From positions 1 to 48,794 of the IMG/VR virus record IMGVR_UViG_3300042463_000998: a DNA stretch of 48,794 bases, one strand, 5' to 3'. The notes beneath the pieces were generated by a model. It saw nothing but the letters and a program-made list of their open reading frames with translations, was not told the DNA's origin and ran no database searches. The stretch comes from a virus. Of the stretch, positions 1,825-48,794 are shown piece after piece (within the stretch, counting starts at the first letter, position 1; every line of letters starts with the position of its first letter). A program made the translations under genes and the position numbers.

Positions 1825-2574
1825 ATGGCAAGCAAGAAACCAGCAAACACCAAAATCAACCTTGAAGAAACTGTGCCACGCACAACAAATTCACTCAAGG
1901 TGAGAATTGATGATCTAAAAACATTTGATCCATTAACAGATAATCAAAAATTATTTTTTGATGCATATAAAAGAGGAGACTACTTTGTAGCCCTGCATGG
2001 TGTCGCAGGAACTGGAAAAACATTTTGCGCAGTATATAAAGCACTTGAAGAGGTCTTGGATAAGAGTAATCCATTCAAGAAAATTATCATTGTGCGTTCG
2101 GCTGTTCAGAGTCGTGAAATCGGTCACTTGCCAGGTGACGTTACGGAAAAGATGGAAATCTATCAGCAACCGTATGTACAAATTTGTGATACACTGTTCG
2201 GAAGAAAAGACGCATATCAGCGCCTTGAAGAACAAGGATATATCGATTTCATTTCAACGTCATTTATTCGCGGTATGAGTTTTGATGATGCAATCATCAT
2301 CGTGGACGAAATGCAAAACTTGACGTTTGAAGAAATTGACACAGTTATGACCCGTGTTGGTTATCGCTCAAAGATCATTTGGTGTGGTGACTATCGCCAA
2401 ACTGATTTAAACAAAAAGAAAAATGACATGAGTGGTATCTTGAAATTTTTCGATATTGCTGTACGCATGTCAGCATTCACCAAGATAGAATTTACACCCG
2501 AAGACATTGTTAGAAGTTCTTTGGTGAAAGACTATATTCTCGCTAAACTTGATTATGAAGATGGTATTGATTGA
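1825..2574 (+). CDS. phoH: PhoH-like P-loop ATPase
   Basis: A 249-residue PhoH-family NTPase. After a basic N-terminal tail comes LTDNQKLFFDAYKRGDYFVALHG, then Walker A GVAGTGKT at residues 59-66. IIIVRSAVQSREIGHLPGD follows at ~87-104, and the Walker B AIIIVDEMQN has D161/E162. A sensor-like IIWCGDYRQTDL sits at ~185. These are hallmark blocks of phage PhoH. The family is linked to phosphate starvation in bacteria and to RNA metabolism; its role in phages is unsettled and the gene is a common auxiliary gene of aquatic phages. The stop codon overlaps the start of the exonuclease gene (TGATG). Confidence 0.93.
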   Translation: MASKKPANTKINLEETVPRTTNSLKVRIDDLKTFDPLTDNQKLFFDAYKRGDYFVALHGVAGTGKTFCAVYKALEEVLDKSNPFKKIIIVRSAVQSREIGHLPGDVTEKMEIYQQPYVQICDTLFGRKDAYQRLEEQGYIDFISTSFIRGMSFDDAIIIVDEMQNLTFEEIDTVMTRVGYRSKIIWCGDYRQTDLNKKKNDMSGILKFFDIAVRMSAFTKIEFTPEDIVRSSLVKDYILAKLDYEDGID

Positions 2575-3245
2575 TGTTTGAATTCGTAAAACTACCTGAG
2601 TTGGATTTTGATATGACCGCTGTGACTACCGACTCAGGTAGGGTTTACGTCACACCATCAGGATTTAAGTATGCGTCCGTGACTACGGTTCTCTCCGACT
2701 ACAATAAGAAAGCATTCTTTGAGTGGAGAGAACGTGTTGGTGCAGAGGAAGCTAATCGTGTCTCTCGCCTTGCATCAAGTCGCGGCACTAAACTGCATAC
2801 CGTGTGTGAAAAGTATTTGTTGAATGAAATGACTAGCATGAAACTTGCTAGTATGCTTCCAACGACAAAAGAGTTGTTTTACAAGATAAAGCCACACATT
2901 GATACCAGAATCGGCAAAATCTATGCGCTGGAGCAAGCCCTTTATTCCCACAAGCTAAAACTTGCTGGTCGTGTTGACTGTATCGCTGAGTGGGACGGAG
3001 TGTTATCGATTATTGATTTCAAGTCGTCAACCAAACAGAAAGATAAGAACAACATCGGCAATTACTTCATGCAGTGTACCGCATACGCGAGGATGTTCAC
3101 TGAATTGACTGGTAAGCCATTGGATCAGATTGTAGTTTTGATTGGCACCGAAGAAGGTCCTGGTCAAATCTTTATTGAAAGTGCAGATAAATACCATACT
3201 GAACTTCAAAAATATGTCAACAAGCATTACCGAAAAGCTGGTTGA
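2574..3245 (+). CDS. PD-(D/E)XK family exonuclease
   Basis: A 223-residue nuclease. The ATG at 2574, overlapping the phoH stop, is preferred over a TTG one codon upstream. Core nuclease blocks run in order: SRGTKLHTVCEKYL (~69-82), LAGRVDCIAEW with D135, IIDFKSSTK with D148 and K150, and the helix FMQCTAYARMF with Q167. This is the RecB/Cas4-like PD-(D/E)XK arrangement (D...DxK...QxxxY) seen in the 'phage exonuclease' of T4-like cyanophages. It presumably takes part in host DNA degradation or recombination. Its stop codon lies inside the -35 hexamer of the tmRNA promoter, so the transcription unit ends or hands over here. Confidence 0.85.
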   Translation: MFEFVKLPELDFDMTAVTTDSGRVYVTPSGFKYASVTTVLSDYNKKAFFEWRERVGAEEANRVSRLASSRGTKLHTVCEKYLLNEMTSMKLASMLPTTKELFYKIKPHIDTRIGKIYALEQALYSHKLKLAGRVDCIAEWDGVLSIIDFKSSTKQKDKNNIGNYFMQCTAYARMFTELTGKPLDQIVVLIGTEEGPGQIFIESADKYHTELQKYVNKHYRKAG

Positions 3246-31986: not shown

Positions 31987-34659
31987 ATGGCAATTCCAAA
32001 TATCACAAGAAATAATACAGTTGATGAGTGGAGAATACAGACCAATCAGTCTGCTAACACACTAAACACATTAGAAACTGGTACGTACACTAAAACAACA
32101 GGTACATTGGCCATCGGAGCTAATGCATCTTTACAAGTTTCAAATACTGCACTATTTTCAACCGACATAACTGTTGGTAGAGATATTACTTTGGGTGTTC
32201 AGGGAACTGCAACTGGAAATTTGGGTGTCGGTGGAGTTGTTTCCATCTATGGTCCAGGAACAGCATTATTCGTTGCAAACAACGTTGTAAGTAATGGTAC
32301 AGTTATTGTTAGAAATACAATAATTGCCAACAACATTACAGCAAACTCAAATGTGGTTGTCGTAGGGACAGCGAACGTAGGATTCTTGGGAGTAGCAAAC
32401 ACTGGTGTTTTCGGTCAATCTGTATCCATAGGAAACAATTTGACTGTCATAGCAAACGCATCAGTCGGTGGTAATATATCGGTGACTCAAGGTTTAAGTG
32501 TCGGTGGCAATTTTAGTGTAACTGGCTCAGCTAACGTTGTTGGTAATTTGGGCATCACTGGAAGTTTAGCAACAGCTACATCATTGAATGTTGGCACAAA
32601 CTCCACCGTCACAGGCAATGGTTATTTTGGTGGAACACTGCAAGCAGTGGGTAATGTTTCTATAGGCGGAACATTACAAGCGAACGGTGCAGCATCGCTA
32701 GGTGACGATCTTTTGGTGGGTGGAGATGCCACAATTATAGGTAACTTGGGTGTTACAGGAAACTTCACGTTAGCTGGCCAGACAATTATTGATACTGATA
32801 CTTTTATTATCGGTGCAACAACTCCTATAACTTCAGGCAATGCATACTTCGGTGTGTATCGGGGCAACACACAATCCACTCTAGGAACAGTGAATGCGAA
32901 CGCATATATTCGTTGGGCAGGAACAGCAAAAGAGTGGCAACTTCGTGATGTTGACAACTCAGATTTGGGCACAAGTTTTTCGAAAGTATTAACGGCTAAT
33001 CTAATCACAACAAGCACAGCGACTGTAAGTAATTCAACTTTCGCAAGTTCGTGGCTAACTAAAAACTATGTTGACAATGCCAACACAAATCTGAAATCTT
33101 ATTCAGATGCATTGTTTGCAATCGCAGCCAACACATTTGTTGGCACATCGGGAACAGCGATTCCAGATAAAGGTGTCATAACATATTCCAGCAACAATGG
33201 AATCGCTATACACGGAACAGCAAACACGATTGCTATCAGTACACCACAAGATTTGAGAATAACTGCGACACCGACATTTGCAGGATTAACTCTTGGCACA
33301 GGTGGTCAGTTGGCCATCCAACATGGCGGAACAGGAGCAACTTCGGCTTCGGCGGCACTTACTGCACTGTTACCAACTGGAACAACTGCAGGTTACGTTT
33401 TAACTACAGGTGGACCAGGTAACTTTTATTGGGCTGCTGGTGGCACAGGAGGTGGAGGTGGTGCTGTACCAGGCACAACAATCAACTCAACAAGATTGTC
33501 ATATACAGGCAACGGTGCAAACACGAGATTTACAACACCAACATTCAATGCGGCCACTCAACTGAGAGCATACATTAACGGTGTTAGACAATTTGAATCT
33601 GAGTATTCAGCTAACGTTGCAAACTCAACAATCAGTTTCTCTGAGCCACCACAAAGTACAGACACAATTTTACTTGAAGTTGATGGATACATTGTAAATC
33701 CATATTACGCAAACAACATCACTTACGGACCAGTGACTGGTGATATTTCAGCAAGTGCAAACACAATTCAATTGGCTATAGATAGTCTTGAGAGTAGAAA
33801 AGCAGCATTAGTTGGCGCACAATTTACTGGCATAGCTACAGGTATTACTGTACCACATATAACGAGTAATACAGCTTTTGCGACAACGCAATTTGTTAAA
33901 GATGTTGTAAACTCAGGTAACACGTTCACGATGAGTGTCAGTGGTAATGCAGGAACGGTGACCAACGGTGTTTACACTAATGGATCATATGCGAATCCAT
34001 CGTTTATCACTTCTCTAGCAAATGCAAAAATTACTGGTCTTGCTGCATCAGCAACAACAGACACATCAAACGCAAGCAATATATCATCAGGCACACTTGC
34101 AGCAGCAAGACTTGAAGCATCTGGTGTAACAGCAAGAACATATGGAACAGCCACTGTTGTTCCAACAATTGTTGTTGATGATAAGGGTAGAATAACCTCC
34201 GTATCAAATACTTCTATCAGTATAGATACAGGCGCAATTACTTCAGGCACACTTGCAGTAGCGAGACTTGGTGGTACGCCAACATTTACTGGTCTAAATG
34301 TAGGATCAGCGAGTGGTGCTGGCACAGGCGAGATTCGTGCATCAAGTGATATTATCGCACACTATTCTTCTGACAGCAGACTGAAAACTGAAATCCAAAT
34401 CATACCGGATGCCCTACAAAAATTAAAATCAATCGATGGTGTAACATTCAATTGGAATAGCCTAGCTGAAAATAAAGACACAGAAAAACGTGAAGCTGGT
34501 GTTATTGCGCAACAAGTACAAAAGGTTCTTCCTGAAATTATCTCAGTGAGAGATAATGGTTATTTGGCTGTGGCTTATGAAAAACTTGTGCCTTTGTTGA
34601 TTGAAGCGATAAAAGAATTGTCCGCTGAAGTTGAAGTATTAAAAGGAAAAAATAAATGA
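31987..34659 (+). CDS. Tail fibre with C-terminal S74 intramolecular chaperone
   Basis: An 890-residue fibre. Residues ~35-265 are short beta repeats of the type VGGNFSVTGSANVVGNLGIT, giving a long beta-structured shaft. DTDTFIIGATTPITSGNAYFGVYRG (~268-292) is a phage fibre module, and an aYINGVRqF module follows at ~505-575. A Gly-rich linker (GGTGGGGGA) sits at ~480. The C-terminal 96 residues from S795 (SSDSRLKTEI, VTFNWNS, REAGVIAQQVQKVLPEI, YLAVAYEKLVPLLIEAIKEL) are the peptidase S74/endosialidase chaperone domain. In known members this domain folds the trimer and cuts itself off at the conserved serine. A late structural gene for host recognition. Confidence 0.88.
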   Translation: MAIPNITRNNTVDEWRIQTNQSANTLNTLETGTYTKTTGTLAIGANASLQVSNTALFSTDITVGRDITLGVQGTATGNLGVGGVVSIYGPGTALFVANNVVSNGTVIVRNTIIANNITANSNVVVVGTANVGFLGVANTGVFGQSVSIGNNLTVIANASVGGNISVTQGLSVGGNFSVTGSANVVGNLGITGSLATATSLNVGTNSTVTGNGYFGGTLQAVGNVSIGGTLQANGAASLGDDLLVGGDATIIGNLGVTGNFTLAGQTIIDTDTFIIGATTPITSGNAYFGVYRGNTQSTLGTVNANAYIRWAGTAKEWQLRDVDNSDLGTSFSKVLTANLITTSTATVSNSTFASSWLTKNYVDNANTNLKSYSDALFAIAANTFVGTSGTAIPDKGVITYSSNNGIAIHGTANTIAISTPQDLRITATPTFAGLTLGTGGQLAIQHGGTGATSASAALTALLPTGTTAGYVLTTGGPGNFYWAAGGTGGGGGAVPGTTINSTRLSYTGNGANTRFTTPTFNAATQLRAYINGVRQFESEYSANVANSTISFSEPPQSTDTILLEVDGYIVNPYYANNITYGPVTGDISASANTIQLAIDSLESRKAALVGAQFTGIATGITVPHITSNTAFATTQFVKDVVNSGNTFTMSVSGNAGTVTNGVYTNGSYANPSFITSLANAKITGLAASATTDTSNASNISSGTLAAARLEASGVTARTYGTATVVPTIVVDDKGRITSVSNTSISIDTGAITSGTLAVARLGGTPTFTGLNVGSASGAGTGEIRASSDIIAHYSSDSRLKTEIQIIPDALQKLKSIDGVTFNWNSLAENKDTEKREAGVIAQQVQKVLPEIISVRDNGYLAVAYEKLVPLLIEAIKELSAEVEVLKGKNK

Positions 34660-42809: not shown

Positions 42810-45494
42810 ATGTCAAAAGCAGATGTTCTTGCCAATTTAGTTAGTACCGGTGGAATTTTGGCTGATGGCGCAATAACGCCTACCAAAATTAGTGCTTTGC
42901 ATACTGATGGTGGCACAATGAATGGTGCCATCACCTTTGCTAATACCCAAACATGGCCAACGTTTAATCAGAATACCACAGGTAATGCAGCAACAGCAAA
43001 CAATTGGACTACGGCCCGCACACTATCACTCGCTGGTGATGCAACAGGTAACGTAAGTATAGATGGTAGCGCAGATGCAACACTAACAGTCGCAGTTGCT
43101 GATGACAGCCATAATCACACAAGTTCAAGTGGCAACTTTAGTGTTGGTGGTAATCTGTCCGTTACGGGCAACCTAACTATCAATGGCACAACCACAACAG
43201 TCAACAGTACAGTAACCACAGTTGATGATCCTGTTATCACTTTGGGTGGTGACACTGCTCCATCTTCGGATGACAGTAAAGATCGTGGTATTGAGTTCCG
43301 TTGGCATAACGGCAGTGCTGCTAAGACAGGTTTCTTCGGCTTTGATGACAGCACTGGTTACATGATGTTTATACCAGATGCTACTAATACTAGTGAAGTA
43401 TTCAGTGGCACACTAGGCGATATTCAAGCTACAAACTTCCGAGGTGCATTGTTCGGTAATGCTAATACAGCAACTACACTAGCCACTGCACGAACAATCA
43501 ATGGCGTAAGTTTTGATGGAAGTGGAAATATTACAGTTGCTGATAGTACTAAACTACCATTAGCTGGTGGTACATTGACTGGCGCATCAACAGTCAGTGT
43601 TGCGACCTGGCAAAAGTGGATTCTCGAAACGACCGGTGTGACTGCCAAGGCGCGCCAAGGCTCAGACAGCAACGGACTAAACTTTACAACAAACGCACTC
43701 TGGAACGGTAGCTGGGTTGAAGATGACTCTACCAAAAAGAAGTTTGCATATATCCAGCATCTCGGCAACGGTCGCCATGAGTTCAGAACCGCCGCTACTG
43801 GTACTGGTATTTCTTGGGTAACTAGCCTTACGGCAGATGAAGCTGCCGTAAACTCACTTGTTGCACTTCAGCAGGGTGGCAATCAAGTATTACACGCAGG
43901 CAATTATAACAGTTATGCATTACCGTTGAGTGGTGGTACCATGACTGGTGCAATTAGTTTCGCTGCTGGTCAAACATGGCCTACATTCAATCAAAGCACA
44001 ACTGGCAACGCAGCAACTGCCACAACATTACAGACTGCACGAACAATCAATGGTACCAGTTTCAGTGGTTCAGCAAATATTAAAGCTACAGAGTGGTTTC
44101 ACTCAGACAGAGATTTTGCTGCGGGAACGCTTGTAACAACCGATATCAATTACGCAGTTTCTTCGGGTGATCCATTTATCCTAGAAATTCGTGGCAATTC
44201 TTACGGTGATGCTGTTCCATACGATGTTCAATATCAGGGTTATATTTACTCAGATACGATTATTAACCACGGCGGATATTCGAACGGAACAAATATTACA
44301 GGTCTTGTTGCGATAAATGTTGGTGGTAATCTTTGTTTTTGGTGGCCAAGACAATCTTATTGGAATGGATTTAATGTACGGGCTTACACAGCTTATGCCA
44401 CATACGCAGTTAATAGGGTAACAAGTATTACTAGCACAGCTAAACCAACATCAACTAAAGAAGTAGCACTATCAGCAAACATTCGTCAATCTCTACATAG
44501 CAGCAATTTTAGTTCATATGCATTACCAGCAAGTGGAGGCACTATCGCAGGAAATGGATCAATAGATTTTGGTCCGAACACTAGCTGGAGCGCAACATTA
44601 CGTGTTGGTGGCAACGGTCACGGTGGAACAGGAAGAGCAAGTGTAGTTACAACTAACGGAAATTTACATCTTGATGGTGCGGCAAGTAGTGGAATATATT
44701 TAAACTGGTATGCTACTAGTACGCCGGGAGTATATTTTGGAAATGGTGCTGCTGGACAAGTGGGTCGTGTAACTGCCGCTGGGCTTGCTTCATTTGCGAC
44801 ACTTGGACTAAATAATGGCTTTGAAATTCAGCAGGGTGGAAGTAATTACGGACAGTTCAACACTTGGGTACATTTAAACGGACATTATGGTCTTTACGCA
44901 GGCACCAACGGTGCACATTTTTATCCTAATAACGGAAGCTATGGTTCGTGGAAGATTGATGGCAGCCGAAACGGCTGGGCAGGTATCGAGTTTGGTACAG
45001 GTACTAGCCTAATGATGAATGATGATGCTTACGGCTTTCACAGAAATACTAGCGGTACATGGAAATTTTATGTTTCTGGTGGTAATGGATACTTCCCCGG
45101 CAACGTGACGGCGTACTGGTCAGATGCCCGACTAAAAGAAAATTTACGCGAAATTAAACATGAGTCGTTAGATATCCTTAGCGCGTTTACTGCATATCGT
45201 TTTAATTGGAATGCCAAAGTTGCGGAGATTGGTAGCACAATACCGGTAGGTAAAGAGGAAATAGGTCTTATTGCACAACAAGTGCAGGCCGCCCTACCTG
45301 ATGCAGTTGTAGTTAATAAGGCCGGTGCCAAAATTGGTGATAGTGGTTTCGACTATTTAACTATCAACTATGATCGTATTACTCCACTGTTGGTGGAAGG
45401 TGTCAATATACACACACAAGAAATAAAAGATTTGAAATCACAAGTCAACGAACTCAAAGAACTGGTACAACAACTCATGAAGGCACAGCAATGA
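42810..45494 (+). CDS. Second tail fibre with S74 intramolecular chaperone
   Basis: An 894-residue fibre. The N-terminus MSKADVLANLVSTGGILADG, AITPTKISALHTDGGTMNGA is a fibre attachment module. The FxQTWPTFNQ(N/S)TTGNAATA cassette occurs twice (~48-67 and ~380-400), and again in the fibre at 47227. GNLSVTGNLTINGTTTTVNS leads to a DDPVITLGGDTAPSSDDSKD module. Residues ~270-750 hold variable beta domains. From S771 (WSDARLKENLREI, RFNWNAK, EEIGLIAQQVQAALPDAVVV, YLTINYDRITPLLVEGV) the C-terminus is an S74 chaperone ending in a coiled coil. Overlaps the next gene by ATGA. Confidence 0.87.
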   Translation: MSKADVLANLVSTGGILADGAITPTKISALHTDGGTMNGAITFANTQTWPTFNQNTTGNAATANNWTTARTLSLAGDATGNVSIDGSADATLTVAVADDSHNHTSSSGNFSVGGNLSVTGNLTINGTTTTVNSTVTTVDDPVITLGGDTAPSSDDSKDRGIEFRWHNGSAAKTGFFGFDDSTGYMMFIPDATNTSEVFSGTLGDIQATNFRGALFGNANTATTLATARTINGVSFDGSGNITVADSTKLPLAGGTLTGASTVSVATWQKWILETTGVTAKARQGSDSNGLNFTTNALWNGSWVEDDSTKKKFAYIQHLGNGRHEFRTAATGTGISWVTSLTADEAAVNSLVALQQGGNQVLHAGNYNSYALPLSGGTMTGAISFAAGQTWPTFNQSTTGNAATATTLQTARTINGTSFSGSANIKATEWFHSDRDFAAGTLVTTDINYAVSSGDPFILEIRGNSYGDAVPYDVQYQGYIYSDTIINHGGYSNGTNITGLVAINVGGNLCFWWPRQSYWNGFNVRAYTAYATYAVNRVTSITSTAKPTSTKEVALSANIRQSLHSSNFSSYALPASGGTIAGNGSIDFGPNTSWSATLRVGGNGHGGTGRASVVTTNGNLHLDGAASSGIYLNWYATSTPGVYFGNGAAGQVGRVTAAGLASFATLGLNNGFEIQQGGSNYGQFNTWVHLNGHYGLYAGTNGAHFYPNNGSYGSWKIDGSRNGWAGIEFGTGTSLMMNDDAYGFHRNTSGTWKFYVSGGNGYFPGNVTAYWSDARLKENLREIKHESLDILSAFTAYRFNWNAKVAEIGSTIPVGKEEIGLIAQQVQAALPDAVVVNKAGAKIGDSGFDYLTINYDRITPLLVEGVNIHTQEIKDLKSQVNELKELVQQLMKAQQ

Positions 45495-45664: not shown

Positions 45665-45778
45665 ATGGTAATGCCAGCAAGTGGTGCAATTTCACTGAAC
45701 CAAGTTAACGTAGAACTTGATAAATCAGGCACAGCAAGTATTTCTTTAAATAATGTCGCACTAGAGGCGAAAGGATAA
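45665..45778 (+). CDS. Mini-protein resembling the N-terminus of the downstream adhesin
   Basis: A 37-residue frame (ATG 45665, or the second ATG at 45671, to TAA 45778): MPASGAISLNQVNVELDKSG and TASISLNNVALEAKG. The MPxSGxxSLNQxxxE start matches the first residues of the 382-aa protein that begins four bases later (MPLPTSGTLSLNQIQTEFG). In other phages this short element is the N-terminal cap of fibre proteins. It is either a free-standing cap or a leftover of gene shuffling. Confidence 0.55.
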   Translation: MVMPASGAISLNQVNVELDKSGTASISLNNVALEAKG

Positions 45779-45782
45779 GCAA

Positions 45783-46931
45783 ATGCCACTGCCAACTTCA
45801 GGAACACTTTCGCTTAACCAAATTCAAACCGAGTTTGGTGGAACAAACCCCATCGACTTAAATGAATACTACGCAGGCGGAGAATTTGTGCCATCAGGAA
45901 CATCTGGCACCAATGGTGTAGTGCCGAGTTCGGGCACAATTAGCGCGTTCAACTTTTACGGGACACAGAAAACCCCCGGACAGACTTGGACTTACCGAGC
46001 AGGCCTCCAAGCAACCAGTTGGGGAACAACTAACGCACAAACACGCGCAGTTGTGTGGGCGGGAACACGGTTTGCTGTATTCGGAAACTCTGGTAAAGCA
46101 GCCACATCTCCTGACGGTATTACATGGACATATCAGTCGAACCTTGCTTCAACTGGATGGGGCACAAATACTGGATTTTTTGCGTTATGGACAGGAACAC
46201 AGATTGTCCTAGTCGGTAGCGGCGGTAGCGTAGCTACATCTCCTGACGGTATTACATGGACGTACCAAGCAGGCCTCAGTGCGACCGCTTGGGGTACAGG
46301 CATACCGTTTGGCGGTGTGTGGACAGGAACACAGATTTTACTGGTTGGTATCTCTGGTAAAGCAGCCACATCTCCTGACGGTATTACATGGACGTACCGA
46401 GCAGGCATCAGTGCTTTACCATCATGGGGTACTGCAAACGTCCAAACGGCCTCGTGGTCAGGAACGCGATTCTTTGTGGCTGGAAACAACGGTCGAGTAG
46501 CCACATCTCCTGATGGCGTCACATGGACGTACCAAGCAGGCCTCCAAGCAACCAGTTGGGGAACAGGCGCGCCGTATGCCAGTGTGTGGACTGGGACGCA
46601 GTTTGCTGTGTTTGGAACCTCCGCAGCCACATCTCCTGATGGAGTTACTTGGACGATTCAATCGGGCATGAGCACAGTACTTTCTGGTTCGGCAGTGCAT
46701 TCTGCCGTATGGACAGGATCAAATATAGTAGTAGGAACTTTGGGTGGAGGCGTAGGTGGCGGGGCAGTGGCCACATCATACGATGGCGTCACATGGACGT
46801 ACCAATCAAACCTTAGAAATTTGCCAGACTGGGGCGGAGCGCCTATATTCCTAAACAACCTTGCTTGGTCGGGATCAAAATTGTTGGTGGGTTCAATGGC
46901 AGGAACTGGAAAAATAGCCACATCCCCTTAA
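45783..46931 (+). CDS. Seven-bladed Asp-box beta-propeller adhesin
   Basis: A 382-residue protein. Residues 1-65 are a fibre cap (LPTSGTLSLNQIQTEFGG; SSGTISAFNFYGTQ). The rest is a propeller of ~42-49-residue blades, each with an Asp-box/BNR-like turn ATSPDGxTWTYQ. Turns begin near nucleotides 46104, 46236, 46368, 46503, 46629 and 46773. The seventh is cut after ATSP by the stop at 46929-46931. Its missing half, GQTWTYRAGL, sits at the start of the propeller (~66-75), so the ring closes by pairing N- and C-terminal strands. Such domains commonly bind glycans, so a receptor-binding or saccharide-recognition role is likely. Confidence 0.85.
   Translation: MPLPTSGTLSLNQIQTEFGGTNPIDLNEYYAGGEFVPSGTSGTNGVVPSSGTISAFNFYGTQKTPGQTWTYRAGLQATSWGTTNAQTRAVVWAGTRFAVFGNSGKAATSPDGITWTYQSNLASTGWGTNTGFFALWTGTQIVLVGSGGSVATSPDGITWTYQAGLSATAWGTGIPFGGVWTGTQILLVGISGKAATSPDGITWTYRAGISALPSWGTANVQTASWSGTRFFVAGNNGRVATSPDGVTWTYQAGLQATSWGTGAPYASVWTGTQFAVFGTSAATSPDGVTWTIQSGMSTVLSGSAVHSAVWTGSNIVVGTLGGGVGGGAVATSYDGVTWTYQSNLRNLPDWGGAPIFLNNLAWSGSKLLVGSMAGTGKIATSP
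46098..46928 (+). repeat. In-frame propeller-blade repeats
   Basis: Seven direct repeats spaced 132, 132, 135, 126, 144 and 147 bases. The best-conserved DNA core is the Asp-box segment ACATCTCCTGACGG followed by TATTACATGGACGTACC. The high DNA identity of repeats 1-4 suggests recent duplication or gene conversion and makes the array prone to changes in blade number. Confidence 0.85.
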
Positions 46932-46952: not shown

Positions 46953-47153
46953 ATGGAAATCAAGAAAATTCACTCAATGCGCTGGGCAACACCGGACCAT
47001 ACTTTTGTAGGTTTGGTTGCAGACACCGACACTGGCAATAACCAAGATATTGGGACGCCTTACAATGGCACGTCAATTATCTGGGAGGCTGTACAGGCGT
47101 TTCCAGTAAACGAAATTGCGGAGTACATCGAACCACCACAGGAGCAACCATGA
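46953..47153 (+). CDS. Small fibre-locus protein
   Basis: A 66-residue protein with AGGA before its ATG: MEIKKIHSMRWATPDHTFVG, LVADTDTGNNQDIGTPYNGT and SIIWEAVQAFPVNEIAEYIE, then a PPQEQP tail. Short proteins with an IxxIxxxxW....xxxAxFPxxxIxxY ending are frequent companions of phage fibre genes. Function unknown; possibly a fibre connector or chaperone. Confidence 0.65.
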   Translation: MEIKKIHSMRWATPDHTFVGLVADTDTGNNQDIGTPYNGTSIIWEAVQAFPVNEIAEYIEPPQEQP

Positions 47154-47226: not shown

Positions 47227-48794
47227 ATGACAAAAACAAGAATATTGGGCGGATTAGTTTCAGACACAGGTTTGCTTGGTGACGGCACGATAACAGCAAC
47301 CGAAGTTGGTGCTTTACCCATCGGCGGCGGAACACTAACTGGTAACGTAACTTTTGCTGCTGGTCAAACATGGCCAACGTTCAATCAGAATACGACAGGC
47401 ACTGCTGCAAACATTACAGCAAATACAAACTCAACACTCACCACACTAAGTTCTTTGAGTTTGCCTGGTTCTCAGGTCAGTGGTAATATTTTAGGTAGTG
47501 CTGCAAACGTGACGGGCACTGTAGCAATTGCTAACGGTGGTTCAGGACAAACAACAGCACAGACAGCAATGAATGCGTTTGCTGGTGCTAATACTTCCGG
47601 TTATTTCCTTCGCGGCAATGGCACCAACGTTGTGATGGCAGCAATTCAAGCTGCTGATGTTCCAACACTAAATCAAAATACAACAGGCACTGCTGCATCA
47701 GCAACGAATATACTGGGCGGTAGTGCAGGCACAATTCCATATCAGTCTGATGCAAATACTACGGCATTTTTAGCGGCAGGAACTTGTGGTTATTTCTTGA
47801 AGTCAAATGGTGCTGCTGCTCCAAGTTGGGATCTGGTAGCCACATCTTCGGCATTCAACGTTTGCAACACGACAAACATTGTAAGTTGTATTAGCGGTAC
47901 TGGTGGTACTGGTACCAACAACTTCTTTGCGGGTAGTTGCGCTGGACTTTGTAACACAACGGGTAGTTTCAACTTCTTCGCTGGCCAGTGTGCTGGTACC
48001 AGCAACTTATACGGCAATAATAATACGTTCATTGGCGACCGCGCCGGCTTTTGCAATACAGCAGGTAACCACAACAACTTCTTTGGAAAATATGCTGGTT
48101 ACAACAATATAGGAGGTTATGTCTTCATGTATGGAGACACAGGTAACTATAATAACTTCTTTGGTTACACTGCAGGTTTCAACAACACAATTGGCAATAA
48201 TAATAATTTCTTTGGTGCTTCGGCTGGTTTCCACAACTCAACTGGCTGCAGCAATAATTTCTTTGGCCCAGGCGCTGGGTGCAAAAACACAACAGGTAGC
48301 TACAACATATTCATGGGGTTGCGCGCCGGCTTTTGCAATACCACAGGCAACTACAACAACTTCTTTGGCAGATGTGCCGGAGCTTACAACACAACAGCTA
48401 ACCACAACAACTTTATAGGTCAATGTGCCGGAGCTTACAACACAACAGGTGGCTACAACAACTTCTTTGGCAGATGTGCTGGTATACTCAACACAACAGG
48501 CAGTTATAACACATTCATTGGATTACGAGCCGGCTTCAGTAACACATTTGGAGGCGACAACTTCTTTGCTGGTCGTTGTGCTGGTCGGTTAAACACAACC
48601 GGCAACAACAACACATTCTTTGGATGCAATGCAGGATGTGCAGTAACAACTGGTTCTAATAACTTAATCATTGGTTCAGTTGTTGGTTCTGCTGGCTTAT
48701 GTGACACTGTTATATTGGCTGCAGGCACATGTGAAAGATTAAAAGTTGATGCTACTGGTTTAAGTATCAATGGTTCACCATTTAGCGCACCAAG
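47227..48794 (+). CDS. Tail fibre with 17-residue NTFIG-type repeat array (3' end beyond window)
   Basis: Open from ATG 47227 to the window end (522 codons, incomplete). The N-terminus MTKTRILGGLVSDTGLLGDG, TITATEVGALPIGGGTLTGN is a fibre attachment module. AAGQTWPTFNQNTTGTAA (~44-61) is the cassette shared with the fibre at 42810. VAIANGGSGQTTAQTAMNAF (~98-117) and GTIPYQSDANTTAFLAAGTC (~164-183) are standard fibre elements. From ~231 there are about 14 copies of a 17-residue repeat (NNFFGRCAGAYNTTGGY type), then DTVILAAGTCERLKVDATGLS. An S74 or similar C-terminal domain can be expected past the edge. Confidence 0.85.
   Translation, partial: MTKTRILGGLVSDTGLLGDGTITATEVGALPIGGGTLTGNVTFAAGQTWPTFNQNTTGTAANITANTNSTLTTLSSLSLPGSQVSGNILGSAANVTGTVAIANGGSGQTTAQTAMNAFAGANTSGYFLRGNGTNVVMAAIQAADVPTLNQNTTGTAASATNILGGSAGTIPYQSDANTTAFLAAGTCGYFLKSNGAAAPSWDLVATSSAFNVCNTTNIVSCISGTGGTGTNNFFAGSCAGLCNTTGSFNFFAGQCAGTSNLYGNNNTFIGDRAGFCNTAGNHNNFFGKYAGYNNIGGYVFMYGDTGNYNNFFGYTAGFNNTIGNNNNFFGASAGFHNSTGCSNNFFGPGAGCKNTTGSYNIFMGLRAGFCNTTGNYNNFFGRCAGAYNTTANHNNFIGQCAGAYNTTGGYNNFFGRCAGILNTTGSYNTFIGLRAGFSNTFGGDNFFAGRCAGRLNTTGNNNTFFGCNAGCAVTTGSNNLIIGSVVGSAGLCDTVILAAGTCERLKVDATGLSINGSPFSAP
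47917..48675 (+). repeat. 51-bp in-frame tandem repeat array in fibre gene
   Basis: About 14 units of 17 codons with consensus N-(N/T)-F-(F/I)-G-x-x-A-G-x-x-N-T-T-G-x-(Y/N). One unit near 48100-48140 carries an insertion of about nine residues (YVFMYGDTG). Many units hold one or two cysteines at fixed positions (for example GRCAG, FCNTTG), which is unusual for this repeat class. The regular period suggests a beta-helical shaft. Nucleotide similarity between units is high enough for slippage or unequal exchange. Confidence 0.88.

Follow-up and report, generated by a model that had tools for sequence, protein, structure and literature searches.

Among the described systems closest to the locus analysed here are the Asp-box propellers. 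The regular form of their motif is S-x-D-x-G-x-x-W (Quistgaard & Thirup 2009, PMC2716378), while the short Asp-box has been defined as S/t-x-D/n-x-x-x-W/f/y. By 2009, structures had shown the short form one to three times in five-bladed GH32/GH43 propellers and once in a six-bladed sialidase (PMC2716378). In Asp-box propellers, a 1+3 Velcro closure is normal, no more than n-1 boxes have been seen in a propeller of n blades, and a conserved bottom is combined with variable, functional top loops (PMC2716378). A second group, the highly repetitive propellers, includes reported arrays of 15 (7+8) and 47 (PMC9218822).

The window, that is, the whole stretch of DNA under analysis, comprises the 48,794 bases of an IMG/VR virus record. 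One of its genes likely encodes a virion adhesin, in which a seven-bladed propeller sits on an N-terminal attachment module, evolves by whole rings, exposes a receptor face and is served by a helper protein (Table 1). The ORF calls agree with the first-pass annotation on the open reading frame, its coordinates and its strand, and the start is preceded by a good Shine-Dalgarno sequence (AAAGGA-N7-ATG). The protein consists of an N-terminal part of approximately 64 aa followed by exactly seven units of about 44 aa (range 42-48), which start at residues 68, 114, 158, 202, 247, 289, and 337. An HMM of the unit recovers all seven, with E values of about 1e-11 to 1e-21.

Table 1. Features of the propeller locus (positions in the window).
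Feature	Position	Strand	Description and basis
37-aa mini-ORF	45665..45778	+	MVMPASGAISLNQVNVELDKSGTASISLNNVALEAKG; upstream of the propeller gene; SGxISLNQ motif common to the N-terminal module
Propeller gene	45783..46931	+	382-aa protein with an N-terminal module and a predicted seven-bladed propeller; ORF call, Shine-Dalgarno
N-terminal module, aa 1-64	45783..45974	+	phrog_30374, E=5e-7; AF2 of low confidence, helix 11-18 only
Blade unit 1	45984..46121	+	TWTY strand as putative N-terminal closing strand; unit list, unit HMM, AF2
Blade unit 2	46122..46253	+	Unit list, unit HMM
Blade unit 3	46254..46385	+	Unit list, unit HMM
Blade unit 4	46386..46520	+	Unit list, unit HMM
Blade unit 5	46521..46646	+	Unit list, unit HMM
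Blade unit 6	46647..46790	+	Divergent, Gly-rich 2-3 loop, box ATSYDGVTW; unit list, unit HMM
Blade unit 7	46791..46928	+	Terminates in ATSP (first half of the split box), stop codon next
66-aa conserved partner protein	46953..47153	+	Candidate assembly chaperone; 21 nt downstream of the propeller gene

The array had been described as six complete ATSPDGxTWTY turns plus one motif split between its two ends. The split is indeed present, as GQTWTYRAGL opens unit 1 without a preceding ATSPDG and the terminal ATSP abuts the stop codon. The six intact boxes are also found, but only four of the six turns fit the exact pattern, since unit 6 is preceded by a turn ending in TWTI and unit 7 by one with ATSYDG. 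Moreover, the motif is not the regular Asp-box but the short one, S-x-D-x-x-x-W. The box sequences are SPDGITW, SPDGVTW and SYDGVTW, each shorter by one residue than the regular form; all six satisfy the short definition, and no regular Asp-box occurs in the protein. The viral relatives hold 377 matches to the short box versus 10 to the regular one, and many of their seven-unit proteins have exactly six boxes. With six boxes per seven units, the window protein follows the n-1 relation of the Asp-box superfamily and falls outside the five-blade, one-to-three-box pattern of the GH32/GH43 propellers.

The seven-bladed propeller proposed in the first-pass annotation, with structure prediction named as a check, was borne out by AF2, by the Foldseek matches and by the blade counts of the relatives. 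The AF2 model (17 sequences, pTM 0.78) consists of a ring with one N-terminal strand and seven sets of three (1 + 7x3); residues 67-382 are mostly above 90 pLDDT per ten-residue block, the weakest blocks, at about residues 320-360, having values of 70-82. The best solved structures in Foldseek are those of YCF48 (2xbg, 5ojp), with E values of about 1e-11 and TM scores of 0.69-0.74 by target length. Other seven-bladed rings, including RACK1 and the designed seven-bladed WRAP proteins, are also matched, as are many predicted phage proteins. By sequence, searches of the PDB returned chance matches only, and neither Pfam nor PHROGs recognizes the whole window protein. The protein is thus predicted to be a closed ring of seven four-stranded blades in which, judging from strand order alone, the first and last strands would pair at closure. 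This N-terminal closing strand, which is supported by AF2, Foldseek and the blade counts, had been described as a strand exchange that locks the ring; it would correspond to an ordinary 1+3 Velcro. A model of the 14-unit relative L002 (pLDDT 78.7, pTM 0.53) matches the tandem seven-bladed structures 2ymu and 1nr0.

Relatives were drawn from viral contigs, bacterial and archaeal genomes, and phage records, and for each protein the unit count relied on an HMM rebuilt from that protein's own units. Multiples of seven account for 55 of the 63 contiguous arrays in closed ORFs (39 with seven units, 15 with 14 and one with 21), a count obtained with short peptide patterns as seeds, which exert no selection on the length of an array, and with a full-ring ranking that favours seven or more. 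The other eight arrays hold 5, 6, 9 or 13 units. When only arrays of at least eight units are considered, 16 out of 19 are multiples of seven. The binomial P values for the counts in sevens (2e-11 and 4e-38) ignore shared ancestry and are indicative only. Synechococcus phage B23 carries seven units and Limnohabitans phage DC31 carries 14, both arrays ending in TSP. L005 reaches 35 units (hand count from the unit lists; 35.08 periods), and L136 shows in its gap list three blocks of about 14 units each with linkers between them. Blade number had been expected to vary; it does so, but by whole sevens instead of single-blade steps. The persistence of these multiples across many divergent phages implies, on sequence evidence only, that evolution retains a ring when it is whole.

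Several of the off-seven arrays leave space at their ends for a missed unit, and L038, L096, and L120 still depart from sevens. Two proteins with a count of eight, L111 and L118, were not accepted as eight-bladed because they seem to follow a different split register, with seven gaps plus a partial unit and an array length of about 7.4 periods; L121 is similar to them by appearance. One extra unit match in the window and another in L098 are isolated and were considered spurious. Two further observations concern propeller genes as such. In L037 (3863-6927), three successive genes encode one seven-unit propeller each, and a PF16778 chaperone gene comes after the last. In Synechococcus phage B23 (L172 5839-6810; MN695335.1, about 214658-215629), the propeller is a 323-aa, seven-unit ORF on the + strand that is unannotated, since the annotation of MN695335.1 places there two hypothetical genes, gp328 and gp329, on the opposite strand.

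In proteins with more than one ring, those of L027, L110, L109, and L147, the linkers come after unit 7, where they separate one half of the box from the other, and inter-ring linkers place 97-268 aa between unit starts. This position favours self-closure of each ring and argues against an exchange of strands between rings, in which the N-terminus would close the second one. An ATSP at the stop codon is found in about 12 proteins. In the 14-unit proteins L002, L003, and L006, units 1 and 8 both carry a first-blade signature (DDLSK, DGLSK or similar), suggesting that the start of a ring is under its own constraint. Duplication of a whole ring was considered as the origin of the 14-blade proteins; nevertheless, blade identity plotted against offset lacks a general peak at seven, indicating that they arose mainly by some route other than recent ring duplication. 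Blades seem instead to be shuffled, with mainly complete rings surviving.

At the DNA level, the blades are very similar, as the first-pass annotation had stated, and beyond what protein similarity requires. Identical residues in different blades use identical codons in 55% of cases, compared with 37% expected from codon usage, and the 216 identical codons observed exceed the mean (145) and the maximum (203) of 2000 simulated redraws. Likewise, the longest exact repeat among blades reaches 42 nt, whereas none of 200 synonymous redraws gave one above 30 nt. Blades 1-5 are the most alike, while blades 6 and 7 have diverged, and blade identity in the protein ranges from 35 to 76%. This excess similarity, closest in blades 1-5, is consistent with these blades having undergone recent duplication or gene conversion. 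The array goes unreported by Tandem Repeats Finder and hence differs from a simple tandem DNA repeat.

The N-terminal module is present in 52 phage records and is joined to different, unrelated C-termini in L176, L177, and L178-L182; in L178, L179, and L182 (4001 onward), a Gly-rich C-terminal domain replaces the propeller. With such varied C-terminal parts, the module appears to serve for attachment and to accept different heads. The product of the mini-ORF located upstream weakly matches phrog_26817 and phrog_26746 at their N-termini, and it possibly belongs to the same cassette as the module.

On the downstream side, homologues of the 66-aa protein are encoded directly after the propeller genes of L002, L013, L069, L076, and L078. 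An alignment scan of 2.9 million viral contigs found this family in propeller contigs only (8/8), and it was absent from 50,697 phage records at the sensitivity of the scan, which relies on exact peptide patterns that diverged homologues may escape. The protein has no Pfam match, including PF16778, and no convincing PHROG match. A small same-strand gene directly downstream of the propeller gene is seen in many lineages, and in the loci of nine relatives it encodes a tail assembly chaperone of the PF16778 family (Phage_tail_APC). The 66-aa protein probably assists the folding or mounting of the propeller.

The window carries a T4-like baseplate and tail-fibre region. Tail-fibre genes are located upstream of the propeller gene; family matches are found for the neighbours at 42810-45494 and 31987-34659, and two of the upstream genes have a C-terminal region matching long-tail-fibre families. 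The gene at 47227-48792, which runs off the window, encodes a Cys-rich product with repeats of approximately 17 aa (NTTGxYNNFFGxxAG; 51-nt and 102-nt repeats in the DNA). The phages of L001, L051, and L062 share phoH, a nuclease and other early genes with the window phage, and their propeller genes (L001 4992-7061, L051 2376-4529, and L062 3395-5116) adjoin phoH or the nuclease gene; that of L001 sits between the two, outside the tail cluster. The matching phoH/nuclease site of the window (1825-3245) holds no propeller gene, and the window copy lies in the tail-fibre cluster. As related phages carry it at differing sites, the propeller appears to be mobile, which suggests a mobile adhesin cassette.

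The best guess that the sequence allows is that the propeller is probably a receptor-binding tail adhesin. This reading is based on the tail-fibre neighbours, the downstream PF16778 genes of the nine relatives and the restriction of the 66-aa family to the vicinity of propeller genes, and the Gly-rich C-termini also carried by the N-terminal module fit the same context. The placement of the L001 propeller gene outside the tail cluster and the lack of a PF16778 match for the 66-aa partner count against it. Variation in sequence and length (entropy, indels) is concentrated on loops 4-1 and 2-3, while loops 1-2 and 3-4 are conserved, so that the variable face matches the variable functional face of the Asp-box propellers (PMC2716378). 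In the proposed mechanism, the short N-terminal module would mount the C-terminal propeller on the tail apparatus, each of the seven copies of the blade having its strands 3 and 4 joined by a short Asp-box hairpin. The first strand of the chain would be the outer one of the last blade, the final strand would be the third of that same blade, and the seventh hairpin, completed non-covalently, would close the ring. Blades would be copied and homogenized as DNA, with mainly whole-ring arrays persisting, as may be the case for the relatives with 7, 14, 21, and 35 blades. The face formed by the 4-1 and 2-3 loops is the probable binding site for a host-surface receptor, and the 66-aa protein would help to fold or mount the propeller. 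We infer from this context both the virion location and the receptor binding; that the receptor is a glycan, as had been suggested, is a guess.

Other explanations have been weighed against the adhesin. It is rather unlikely that the propeller is a structural or decorating protein of the virion (baseplate, collar or capsid) rather than a receptor binder. Such a role would agree with some of the viral fold matches, which include a baseplate wedge initiator from Synechococcus phage S-SSM7 and, from Vibrio phage VP2, an "outer capsid protein", and with the presence of the N-terminal module in KVP40-like proteins annotated merely as hypothetical or mannoprotein; however, it accounts poorly for the tail-fibre neighbours, the chaperone encoded downstream in many lineages and the high variability of one propeller face. 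An enzymatic role, for instance as an endosialidase or another glycan depolymerase, is considered improbable. Although the endosialidase of the K1F phage tailspike is a regular Asp-box propeller (PMC2716378), Pfam gives no glycoside-hydrolase match here (propeller families GH33, GH58, and GH74), the blades are alike with no obvious unique active site, and the nearest solved fold, YCF48, is not an enzyme. Least credible of all is a non-propeller structure, such as a beta-solenoid or an extended fibre, in which seven would be a coincidence: the neighbouring gene that runs off the window does have short repeats of a possible fibre-forming kind, but the AF2 ring, the fold matches, the counts in sevens and the positions of the linkers all speak against it. 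The adhesin is therefore retained as the preferred reading.

A DNA free to gain or lose single blades nonetheless keeps mainly whole rings, and questions about propeller evolution, such as whether partial rings are tolerated or how tandem rings close, become testable by sequence. The locus further indicates that many phage proteins for host recognition form a large class still lacking annotation, and that a new chaperone family may exist. It is conceivable, albeit still tentative, that they represent a widespread, undescribed family of phage adhesins with all-short-Asp-box propellers, evolution by whole sevens and a small folding or mounting protein, with the 66-aa protein as a new class of propeller chaperone.

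With respect to the known systems, the window protein resembles the Asp-box propellers (PMC2716378) in the box between strands 3 and 4, the n-1 boxes, a putative 1+3 Velcro, and the conserved bottom and variable top loops, but its boxes are all of the short form. YCF48/Hcf136 (2xbg, 5ojp) offers the nearest solved fold, also seven-bladed; nevertheless, it is a photosystem II assembly factor with only 13-15% identity, and the window protein has no match to the Pfam family. The relatives L003 (30.6 bits) and L012 (29.5 bits) exceed the cut-off of 29 bits for Pfam DUF6242 (PF19755), whereas the window protein, with 11 bits, remains under it. Amplification of blades within a gene and tandem rings are shared with the highly repetitive propellers (Pereira & Lupas 2022, PMC9218822; 2ymu), although the phage arrays described here keep to multiples of seven, and the blade identity in the window is partly under the 60% median threshold used in that study. 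The gene order equals that of phage adhesin and chaperone pairs (PF16778, Phage_tail_APC) in nine propeller loci, but the partner in the window is an unrelated 66-aa protein. Compared with all these systems, the predicted closure itself is textbook, and what is new is the composition of short boxes only, together with evolution by rings of seven and a small partner that is conserved.
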